From NCBI RefSeq assembly GCF_003293745.1, contig NZ_PTLZ01000004.1, positions 186,001-250,000 of the forward strand: a stretch of DNA of 64,000 nucleotides, written 5' to 3'. The stretch is from Herminiimonas fonticola. Lineage in GTDB: Bacteria; Pseudomonadota; Gammaproteobacteria; Burkholderiales; Burkholderiaceae_D. The position numbers were made by a program, and so were the translations under genes. The notes under the pieces are model-generated. The model worked only from the letters and a program-made list of their open reading frames with translations, ran no database searches and was not told where the DNA came from. Numbering within the stretch: the stretch's first letter is position 1; the number at the start of each line of letters is the position of its first letter. Shown piece after piece: positions 42,261-49,230 of this stretch.

Positions 42261-42339
42261 GGGCCTCTAGCTCATGCTTGGTTAGAGCAGCGGACTCATA
42301 ATCCGTTGGTGCCGTGTTCGACTCACGGGAGGCCCACCA
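42261..42339 (+). tRNA. tRNA with CAT anticodon, probably tRNA-Ile2 (lysidine type)
   Basis: Full cloverleaf: acceptor GGGCCTC/GAGGCCC, D stem GCTC/GAGC, anticodon arm with loop CTCATAA (anticodon 42297-42299), T arm CCGTG/CACGG with loop TTCGACT, and an encoded CCA. The acceptor stem and the GGACTCATAATCC arm are more like tRNA-Ile2 than elongator tRNA-Met; tRNA-Met is the alternative. It starts 16 nt after rpoD and may be read from the rpoD promoter. Its 3' part is repeated at 49191-49230. Confidence 0.92.
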
Positions 42340-42360
42340 GTATTTATGTGGCAATATCAA

Positions 42361-42391
42361 GGACTTAGATGAAAATCTAAGTCCTTTTTTT
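42361..42391 (+). terminator. Rho-independent terminator after the tRNA
   Basis: GGACTTAGAT and ATCTAAGTCC form a perfect 10-bp stem around GAAA, followed by seven T. Confidence 0.9.
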
Positions 42392-42463
42392 ATGTCACTT
42401 AAGTCTGTCGGTACAATTTCGGAACACTGAGCGAATAGAATAGGTTGGCACTGGAGAGAACGT

Positions 42464-42493
42464 ATGGCAACAATTTCAAAGACACCTTCGTGA
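42464..42493 (+). pseudogene. Probable relic of a tyrosine integrase start
   Basis: GGAGAG followed by an ATG encodes MATISKTPS and then a stop. From memory of the family, many tRNA-targeting phage-type integrases begin MATIxKxPSGTWKA. The bases after the stop (ACC, GG, TCTCATT) look like a shortened form of the codons for GTWKALI. Its place, just inside the islet next to the tRNA, is where such a gene normally lies. The match is short, so this stays tentative. Confidence 0.4.
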
Positions 42494-47543: not shown

Positions 47544-47606
47544 GCCGACAGTTTGCCCGGAAAACTGCGCTGTCTGTGTGAGCAGTTGCGGGCTTGGATG
47601 ACCGGA

Positions 47607-49076
47607 TCAGATCGATGGGGGCACGCCGGAATTGGCGTGCATTGAGTCGCTGACCAGCCTTGCTAATGTGCGCGTCGCGCGTTCGAGTACCGCGTCCCAG
47701 CGCTGACCACAGGTCAGCCGGATGTGGTGCTGGAACTCGGCGCGTGCGGAAAACATGGGGCCTGGGGCGATGCTGATACCTTGCGCCAGCGCGGCTCGAT
47801 ACAAGGCCATCGCGTCGACGCCGATGGGCAATTCGAGCCACATGAAATATCCACCAGCCGGGCGCACAACCAGCGTCCCATCAGGAAAGTTCCTGGTAAC
47901 AGCGTCGAACAGGCTTGCGCGTTGGGCCTGCAACGACAGGCGCAGACCTCGCAGGTGGTGGTCGTAGCCGCCTGCCTGCAGATACTCGGCCAACGCAGCC
48001 TGAGCCGGGATAGACCCAGAAAGGCTCGTCATGACCTTTAGCCTCTGGACGTCTCGCACCCATCGGCCGGGCGCGGCCCAGCCGACTCGATAGCCTGGGG
48101 CCAGGCACTTCGAGAACGACGAGCAGTGCAGCACCAGACCACGATGGTCGAAAGCCTTGGCGGGCAGCGGCGCCACCTTGCCTTCATAGAGCTCGGAATA
48201 GACGTCGTCTTCGATCAGCGGTATGTCGTGGCGCGCGAGCAATTCGACAAGATCGCGCTTCTTTGTATCGGGCATCAGGCTGCCGAGCGGATTCTGGAAG
48301 GTGGTCATCAGCCAACACGCCTTTGGGTGATAAAGTTCGATTACTTGTGCCAGGCGACCGAGATCGATGCCCTCGCGAACGTGGGTCGGCACCTCGATGG
48401 CGTGCAAGCCCAAATGCTGGAGGGCCTGCAACGCAATATAGAAGGTCGGGGACTCGACCACCACCGCATCACCCGGCCGCGCCACCGCGCCCAGGCACAA
48501 GTTCAACGCCTCCATCGCACCGTTGGTTAGCACGATCTCGTCGGGGTCCACGGCCATACCCTGCCGCAGATAGCGCTTGGCAATCTCGCGCCTCAGTCGC
48601 AGGTTACCTGGCGGCAGGTCGTCGACCATATTCCAAGGTTTAAGTCGTCGCGTGCTCGATACCAGCGCGCGACGCAGTCGGTCGAGAGGGAAAAGGGCCG
48701 GGTTCAGGAAAGCAGAACCGAGGGGCACAATGTCGCGCGCTAGCGCAGAGCCGAGGATCGTGCAGATCAAGTCGTTGACCTCGACGGCTTGGCTTCCCGG
48801 CTGTGGGTCGGAGGTTCGTGGTTCCGCGAGCAGCACGCCGCCAGCGCGCGCGGCGACAAAGTAACCTGACCGCGGTACTGCATGAATCAGACCGCGGGAC
48901 TCCAGCAGGTAGTAAGCCTGGAACACCGTGCTTGGGCTCAGGTGCCGAGTGGCACAGATCTGGCGAACGGAGGGCAAGCGGTCCCCGGGTCGGAGCACAC
49001 CGGCAGCGATCTGCTGCTGGAGCTGTTGAGCTAGCGCTTCGAATTTCGAAGGGGCTATGGATTGATGTTTAGGCAT
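47607..49076 (-). CDS. MocR/PdxR-type transcription regulator (GntR-aminotransferase fusion)
   Basis: 489 residues: an N-terminal GntR winged helix (about 10-80: LQQQIAAGVLRPGDRLPSVRQ and SPSTVFQAYYLLESRGLI), a linker, and a fold-type I aminotransferase domain. The PLP lysine lies in HCSSFSKCLAPGYRVGW, and TNGAMEALNLCLGA and MTTFQNPLGSLMP are typical. Such regulators sense PLP or amino-compounds. No target gene of that kind lies divergent from it; the neighbour on that side is the tRNA relic. It is probably a separate unit in the islet. Confidence 0.9.
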   Translation of the reverse strand: MPKHQSIAPSKFEALAQQLQQQIAAGVLRPGDRLPSVRQICATRHLSPSTVFQAYYLLESRGLIHAVPRSGYFVAARAGGVLLAEPRTSDPQPGSQAVEVNDLICTILGSALARDIVPLGSAFLNPALFPLDRLRRALVSSTRRLKPWNMVDDLPPGNLRLRREIAKRYLRQGMAVDPDEIVLTNGAMEALNLCLGAVARPGDAVVVESPTFYIALQALQHLGLHAIEVPTHVREGIDLGRLAQVIELYHPKACWLMTTFQNPLGSLMPDTKKRDLVELLARHDIPLIEDDVYSELYEGKVAPLPAKAFDHRGLVLHCSSFSKCLAPGYRVGWAAPGRWVRDVQRLKVMTSLSGSIPAQAALAEYLQAGGYDHHLRGLRLSLQAQRASLFDAVTRNFPDGTLVVRPAGGYFMWLELPIGVDAMALYRAALAQGISIAPGPMFSARAEFQHHIRLTCGQRWDAVLERATRTLARLVSDSMHANSGVPPSI

Positions 49077-49190
49077 GGTGTCGGAACCGCGCCTCAGTCG
49101 AGCACCGGCTGGATAGGGGGGCAGTGCTTCAGTCTACGCCCTTAATGTCGAAATGTAACCTAGCTTAGCTGTGAACTAAGACCGTATAGG

Positions 49191-49230
49191 CTCATAATTC
49201 GTTGGTGCCGTGTTCGACGGAGGCCCACCA
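49191..49230 (+). repeat. Decayed copy of the tRNA 3' half (attR-like)
   Basis: Compared with 42295-42339, this 40-nt copy differs by one substitution (C to T) and a 5-nt gap (TCACG) in the T arm, and keeps the CCA end. The bases upstream do not continue the tRNA. It marks the right end of the islet; the damage suggests an old insertion. Confidence 0.88.

Follow-up and report, generated by a model that had tools for sequence, protein, structure and literature searches.

How did a complete signalling relay come to lie between a tRNA gene and a damaged copy of that gene's 3' end? The question is raised by a locus of Herminiimonas fonticola (genome of 3.1 Mb) that lies within the window, a stretch of 64,000 nucleotides (nt) of contig NZ_PTLZ01000004.1. 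Here rpoD is followed by a tRNA(CAT) gene, and four minus-strand genes, encoding in order a MocR-type regulator, a hybrid histidine kinase, an auxiliary receiver protein and a REC-EAL protein, lie between this tRNA and a partial copy of it. We consider it likely that the interval is a decayed islet without an integrase, situated at a tRNA(CAT) hot spot, and that its cargo is a laterally acquired MocR gene together with a cytoplasmic phosphorelay for the breakdown of cyclic diguanylate (c-di-GMP). The feature is genuine and well delimited and is of a known kind, apparently the decayed remains of a mobile element, with a variant make-up and an interesting extra protein.

That the right end carries a copy of the 3' half of the tRNA gene, as the initial annotation had proposed, was confirmed. 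The right repeat, which has lost 5 nt and carries one substitution, was found to be 87% identical to the final 45 nt of the tRNA and to be the only strong second copy in the whole genome (E 5.2e-9 with the 79-nt tRNA as query, E 7.9e-9 with a 120-nt query); apart from itself and this repeat, the tRNA(CAT) matched only a tRNA-Lys, weakly (78%). The repeat pair lies far above chance level. The intact gene was labelled tRNA-Met by ARAGORN; we take it to be probably tRNA-Ile(CAU). Attachment-site (att)-like repeats of the tRNA 3' end, 45 nt on the left and 40 nt on the right, flank the islet in the manner of cis-mobilizable elements (CIMEs) and decayed islets, and no integrase or transfer gene was detected between them among the open reading frames (ORFs) or by Pfam analysis of the four genes. 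Comparison of both end spacers with four integrases of congeners by blastx likewise gave no convincing match. In the left spacer, an ATG-initiated stretch, MATISK, which resembles the start of the integrase of congener G005, was considered as an integrase remnant and rejected, as it spans 6 residues at E 5.5 (blastx) and also loses to the adjoining 42 nt, which are a far better fit to a transposase-like gene of congener G010.

By Pfam analysis, the genes and domains of the relay were found to be as first described, with two PAS domains, a receiver (REC) and an HPt domain in the kinase, followed by the REC-EAL protein, all encoded on the minus strand with the MocR gene. The genes are tightly packed, with a 63-nt gap between MocR and kinase, a 1-nt overlap between kinase and auxiliary protein, and a 134-nt gap before the REC-EAL gene. 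A simple 19-residue hydropathy scan detected no membrane segment, the kinase reaching 1.33 at its maximum and the partners at most 1.49. The REC-EAL protein has the PvrR/RocR layout, a REC then an EAL domain and no further domain, with similarity over its full length: its best NCBIfam model was PvrR (nearly full length, 288 bits), and RocR (3sy8) was aligned with it from end to end (7-383 against 5-382, E 1.1e-50). When aligned to a solved EAL domain, the residues that we take to be catalytic were all found to be kept (E176, N234, E266, D296-D297, K317, E353 and Q373), the signature motif reading ETL. These domains, the PvrR model and the RocR match support the proposal of a coherent relay with a c-di-GMP phosphodiesterase as its output, and the relay probably lowers c-di-GMP.

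The auxiliary protein had been described as carrying two receivers, and half of this description stood. At E 0.001, Pfam recognized a single receiver (residues 275-386) and no effector domain; the N-terminal domain is instead a degenerate pseudo-receiver. In an alignment of 14 proteins, that of the window included, every one of the 14 lacks the acceptor aspartate in this domain, with Phe in its place in 13 and Leu in the remaining protein; a DDY motif is kept in all 14 and preceded by Phe in 13. Asp323 of the C-terminal receiver is kept in 13 of the 13 proteins that reach that domain, the protein of locus L094 being cut off before it. A model of the N-terminal domain (five sequences) displayed the five-fold beta-alpha fold of receivers, with a predicted local distance difference test score (pLDDT) of 78 and a predicted template modelling score (pTM) of 0.78, and its structural matches (27 chains at E ≤0.001) were mostly receiver domains. 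The full-length model, in which the pseudo-receiver is followed by long helices and the receiver, was poor (pLDDT 69, pTM 0.39; top matches to PleD chains, TM about 0.25), and its linker arrangement is not to be trusted. The islet exposes a conserved, uncharacterized protein of pseudo-receiver, helical linker and receiver.

Relatives of this auxiliary protein were sought in 392 genomes of the family, in 369 genomes of the class and by one pattern scan of genome contigs. None of 12 congeners encodes a relative at E 1e-40; the kinase relatives of these congeners are weaker and mostly partial (best 48%), as expected of a common domain set. Family-wide, 6 of 392 genomes, the window's included, encode an auxiliary relative at E ≤1e-40, and of the five others one is 81% identical and four are 38-48% identical. 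The 81% relative belongs to Duganella sacchari (NZ_FRCX01000002.1, locus L091), where the same four genes were found in the same order, with identities of 84% (MocR), 74% (kinase), 81% (auxiliary protein) and 75% (REC-EAL) and with the same 63-nt gap between MocR and kinase. Synonymous divergence (dS) between window and D. sacchari was 0.64 for MocR, 0.62 for the kinase, 0.60 for the auxiliary protein and 0.66 for REC-EAL (the last from the first aligned piece only, 323 codons). By contrast, 11 other genes compared between these two genomes had proportions of synonymous differences (pS) of 0.64-0.81, corresponding to a dS of 1.4 to saturation; 13 such genes were tried, two were without a match, and the HD-GYP gene of the right flank, possibly not an orthologue, is among the 11. 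The low and uniform dS indicates that the operon moved as a block once the two lineages had separated, either directly or from a common donor. Ratios of nonsynonymous to synonymous divergence (dN/dS) of 0.14 for MocR, 0.24 for the kinase, 0.16 for the auxiliary protein and 0.23 for REC-EAL point to purifying selection on all four genes. The suggested comparison of codon use with the flanks gave a concordant result: the G+C content at third codon positions (GC3) deviates in the operon (0.62-0.72) from that of 13 other genes of the window (0.52-0.61), and the Duganella copies stand at 0.75-0.82.

That the operon was inherited vertically and lost from the other congeners would be in keeping with the scatter of relay-gene homologues over those 6 of 392 family genomes; this reading was rejected because of the dS values, the absence of close relatives from all 12 congeners and the deviating GC3, and we give it next to no credence. 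Lateral acquisition, as initially suggested, is supported by the same three results. Nor is the MocR gene a stray chromosomal gene, since the other MocR of the genome is only 61% identical to it, while the islet MocR is 84% identical to that of Duganella and shares the dS of the operon. A whole signalling relay, and not an enzyme or a resistance gene, here moved between genera and stayed under selection, which makes this a clean case. The coordinates of the islet and its flanks are collected in Table 1.

Table 1. Features of the islet and its immediate flanks in window positions.
Feature	Position	Strand	Remarks
tRNA(CAT) gene	42261-42339	+	Downstream of rpoD; integration target; last 45 nt (42295-42339) form the left repeat
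Terminator-like stem	42359-42386	+	After the tRNA, within the islet
Transposase-like relic (gene start, 42 nt)	42483-42524	+	93% identical to an ORF start in congener G010
REC-EAL protein, predicted c-di-GMP phosphodiesterase, 394 aa	42569-43753	-	PvrR/RocR type; REC 8-124, EAL 146-380
Auxiliary ("two-receiver") protein, 403 aa	43888-45099	-	Pseudo-receiver about 12-143, long helical linker, true receiver 275-386 (Asp323)
Hybrid histidine kinase, 814 aa	45099-47543	-	PAS-PAS-HisKA(His284)-HATPase-REC(Asp599)-HPt(His751)
MocR-type regulator, 489 aa	47607-49076	-	GntR and aminotransferase domains (Pfam); first gene of the presumed operon
Promoter-side stretch	49077-49165	-	Still alignable with Duganella; match ends at 49165
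Right repeat	49191-49230	+	nt 35-79 of tRNA(CAT); 40 nt, 5 nt missing against the left copy
Terminator-like stem	49238-49265	+	After the right repeat; a like stem directly follows the tRNA in G010
DUF3391/HD-GYP gene	49419-50627	+	Right flank, outside the repeats

The tRNA(CAT) site was examined in 13 genomes of the genus, and the tRNA was located in 12 (all but G004). As expected of a hot spot, a second tRNA or tRNA-end copy was detected in 8 of these 12 (G000, G001, G002, G003, G005, G007, G010, where it is decayed, and G012), although in G003, G005 and G007 the linkage of tRNA and copy is deduced, because they sit on different contigs. No second copy was found in the stretches fetched for G006, G008, G009 and G011, the stretch ending with the contig in G006 and G009. 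G011 may hold an insertion too, because a stem like the right terminator of the window sits 1.9 kb downstream of its tRNA. Integrase-bearing islands occupy the same tRNA in four congeners (G007, G005, G012 and G002), where tyrosine integrase genes adjoin either the tRNA or its copy, and Mob_Pre relaxase genes were found in the islands of G007 and G005. Other cargoes lie between copies. An islet of about 4.8 kb in G003 (L073 3256-7560) carries a DNA methylase, a LlaJI-type restriction enzyme, an AAA protein and a Phd/YefM-type antitoxin gene; it lies between a split tRNA copy and a half copy, with an integrase gene beyond the split copy and no integrase recognized between the copies (5 of 5 ORFs scanned). 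The corresponding interval of G001 (L076 9851-17678), bounded by the tRNA and a decayed tRNA end, encodes a TonB receptor, an ExbB-type protein, a DUF2149 protein and CobN, again with no integrase recognized (4 of 5 ORFs scanned). With one kind of tRNA hosting a relay, a restriction-modification system, TonB/CobN genes and integrase elements in a single genus, the hot spot offers a handy system for the study of cargo turnover.

Two side observations were made at this site. The split tRNA(CAT) copy of G003 (L073 2708-3039) is distinct from the rpoD-linked gene, which is uninterrupted up to nt 39, where its contig stops; the further copy is interrupted just before the anticodon by about 253 nt (insert at about 2744-2996); this insert matched the Rfam group I intron model at 38.2 bits (E 2e-8), under the gathering score of 50, and presumably resembles the tRNA-Ile(CAU) intron of Azoarcus. 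The 20-kb island of G012 includes a gene for a KAP-type NTPase (L074 11618-13765), possibly a defence gene.

An empty site had been predicted in which one tRNA is followed directly by the right terminator and the HD-GYP gene. In G010 the first part of this prediction held, as the terminator of the window's right repeat directly follows the tRNA (94.6% over 37 nt); the second part did not, as the HD-GYP gene is reached only after about 1.05 kb that includes a gene of Host_attach type, then a decayed copy of the tRNA end (33 nt, 91%) and another terminator, also decayed. The HD-GYP gene is not cargo, because it flanks the same site in G007 and G010, both of which are without the relay, and it was rejected as a candidate on that ground.

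Several observations weigh against the reading of the islet as a decayed tRNA element with the relay as its retained cargo. The right repeat is present without the relay in two congeners, decayed in G010 and as an intact 45/45-nt copy before the same HD-GYP flank in G007, and may therefore pre-date the relay. Since no residual integrase gene was recognized, membership in the element type of G007 and G005 rests on 7 nt (GTATAGG) that the window and G007 have in common at the right end, immediately beyond the tRNA core. The complete block of four genes is present in only two of the searched genomes, those of the window and of Duganella; besides the window, it has thus been seen a single time. 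The REC-EAL frame of D. sacchari (L091 11256-12385) stops after 334 codons and its remainder matches in another frame, which represents either a broken gene or a sequencing error; because the frame ends early, the output may be dispensable in Duganella. The MocR gene adjoins auxiliary relatives in 1 of 13 loci and the gene order elsewhere differs, so MocR is not essential to the relay. The receiver lysine (Lys355) is present in the window protein and in 7 of 13 aligned proteins, so phosphorylation of the auxiliary receiver need not be general. The REC-EAL protein did not reach the PvrR equivalog cut-off of 580 and is a relative of PvrR, not PvrR itself. Finally, neither a sigma-70 scan of the region (3 against 3.1 in shuffles) nor a terminator scan (9 against 6.4 in shuffles, standard deviation 2.7) gave a clear excess, which leaves the operon ends unmapped.

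How the relay entered the site can be weighed from the two ends of the islet and from the Duganella locus. The initial annotation took the whole interval for a tRNA-integrated package of 6.9 kb. The laterally acquired block stands, and it may have moved as a tRNA package; this part of the reading was not borne out, given the lack of an integrase, a Duganella copy with no tRNA nearby and the presence of the repeat in the relay-free G007 and G010. In its stricter form, a compact package with the repeats as its own attL and attR and an integrase acting in trans, this explanation seems doubtful to us. It would account for repeats that bracket the cassette almost exactly, the similarity to Duganella ending 25 nt short of the right repeat, and it fits the islets of G003 and G001 that likewise lie between tRNA copies with no recognized integrase, as well as a 42% related integrase encoded elsewhere in the H. 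fonticola genome. Against it stand the two relay-free right repeats, the position of the Duganella cassette, with no tRNA within the 21 kb fetched, and the lack of any other copy of the element with both ends in the loci fetched. Nor was the four-gene block found beside other tRNA genes, a check that the initial annotation had proposed, no tRNA being present in the 13 relative loci as fetched.

The other course, to which we allow somewhat less than an even chance, is that an older tRNA insertion was emptied and that the relay came in later by transposon-mediated or homologous recombination. The relay-free right repeats agree with this, as does the transposase-like relic at the left end of the islet, which is probably the start of an IS21-type istA and has a counterpart in Duganella, 80% identical across 41 nt, that lies about 1 kb upstream of the cassette. 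Around that cassette, this second transposase-like relic is joined by a gene with an integrase core (rve), an IS66-type fragment and the gene of a phage-type integrase. However, the relics measure just 41-42 nt, sit to different sides of the operon and do not share an orientation, so that a joint transposition event is no more than a suggestion. Neither an intact composite transposon nor a target duplication was detected, and the naming of the transposase family is tentative, the G010 ORF giving mostly helix-turn-helix matches in Pfam, some of transposase type, all below the curated cut-offs. The 41-nt similarity was also considered as a sign of circular permutation and rejected, as the orientations disagree. 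A likeness between left stems was dropped as evidence: stems like that after the tRNA of the window follow the corresponding tRNA in Duganella (32-nt similarity), and the half copy in G003 has one too. Carriage of the relay by a plasmid or virus was likewise rejected. Among the matches listed, plasmid-borne relatives of the auxiliary protein were all below 60% identity (15 of 477), and those records covering at least 80% of it (4 of 477) stood at 22-25%; none of 58 pattern matches in viral contigs encodes a relative, and the left spacer was without a plasmid match. Beside the Duganella cassette, on its other side, lies a DUF3391/HD-GYP gene (L091 12734-14068) that is 53% identical to the flank gene of the window, either by coincidence or through a link between c-di-GMP genes.

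The preferred reading of the cargo as a c-di-GMP-lowering phosphorelay was next set against the neighbourhoods of auxiliary relatives. Thirteen loci were compared: 15 from the contig pattern scan, less ten (L096-L105) in which the match covered only a portion of the protein, at the receiver or close to it, plus four and a further four loci, with L091 and L111 counted once as one genome. Auxiliary relatives have hybrid kinases and REC-EAL phosphodiesterases as neighbours in several families within the one class. Kinase sequence adjoins the relative in all 13 loci (whole in 11, an end part at the contig edge in 2) and REC-EAL in 10; the order kinase, EAL, auxiliary protein was found in 7 of the 12 other loci, and kinase, auxiliary protein, EAL only in the window and Duganella. 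These figures also bear on whether the auxiliary protein might itself be the main output, as a scaffold or partner switch, with the EAL protein as a feedback arm. We judge this unlikely: the three loci that lack REC-EAL while keeping the kinase, and the invariant DDY motif, would suit it, but REC-EAL is present in the other 10 and the protein has no recognized effector domain.

From the intact domains and from known relatives we infer the four steps of the relay's working, along with its signal, direction of control, phenotype and co-transcription. The two PAS domains would sense a cytoplasmic cue and set the activity of the kinase, and phosphate would then pass from His284 to Asp599 and on to His751. 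The HPt domain would hand it to Asp59 of the REC-EAL protein, which would then degrade c-di-GMP and so favour motility or dispersal. In competition with this, it would hand phosphate to Asp323 of the auxiliary protein, a branch that, by analogy, would most likely be a VieB-like brake or phosphate sink. MocR would set the expression of its own operon. That the operon is a transferable c-di-GMP-lowering cassette circulating among Burkholderiales, loaded into tRNA(CAT) hot spots by integrases in trans and serving its recipients as a ready motility or dispersal switch, is a wider idea that we find quite improbable.

The analogy is drawn from VieSAB of Vibrio cholerae, in which VieA is an EAL phosphodiesterase. 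VieSAB is likewise a three-protein relay of a kinase, a response regulator that controls c-di-GMP and an auxiliary receiver protein, VieB, which inhibits the kinase VieS (PMC4352251). The two auxiliary proteins are likened by description only: TPR stands among the keywords of that paper, whereas no TPR region was found in the window protein, either by Pfam (E 0.001; one receiver) or in the low-confidence model (pseudo-receiver, helices, receiver). Kinase inhibition by the window protein is proposed by analogy; if the protein is a VieB-like brake, it would show that this control task has been solved with two different structures.

Three further known systems were compared. PAPI-1 of Pseudomonas aeruginosa PA14 is integrated at tRNA-Lys and carries PvrS/PvrR and RcsC/RcsB (PMC8565334, PMC3842833, PMC2696094). 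It resembles the islet in bearing a hybrid kinase and a REC-EAL phosphodiesterase on a tRNA-integrated island, and PvrR is the very model best matched by the EAL protein of the window. It differs in being a 108-kb transferable element with fimbrial genes, sensors drawn in the inner membrane and a helix-turn-helix regulator, RcsB, whereas the window has a kinase without a membrane segment and with its own HPt, a pseudo-receiver/receiver partner, a leading MocR and no transfer genes. With PvrS/PvrR on PAPI-1 as a precedent (PMC8565334, PMC3842833), the initial description of the relay as an unusual mobile cargo was too strong. KpGI-5 of Klebsiella pneumoniae is, as far as the accessible text describes it, a 14-kb islet at tRNA-Met that has a 46-bp repeat and an EAL gene and lacks an integrase (PMC3419637). 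It shares with the window the small size, the direct repeat of the tRNA 3' end, the deviant G+C content, the lack of an integrase and the EAL-domain gene; it differs in length, in its fimbrial operon and in having no phosphorelay, and the EAL protein is not described there with a receiver. CIMEs are att-flanked and without integration and transfer genes (PMC5704250). The islet resembles them as an att-flanked island stripped of such genes at a site used by integrase-bearing relatives, and differs in its damaged right repeat. Among open-licence papers, a full-text search returned none linking MocR with c-di-GMP and an EAL domain, and neither of the two returned for a pseudoreceiver together with EAL, hybrid histidine kinase and response regulator concerns an operon of this kind by its title.

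A minor feature was noted upstream of the islet, where the RpoD protein (39740-42244) includes a long acidic run of Glu and Asp residues in its middle.

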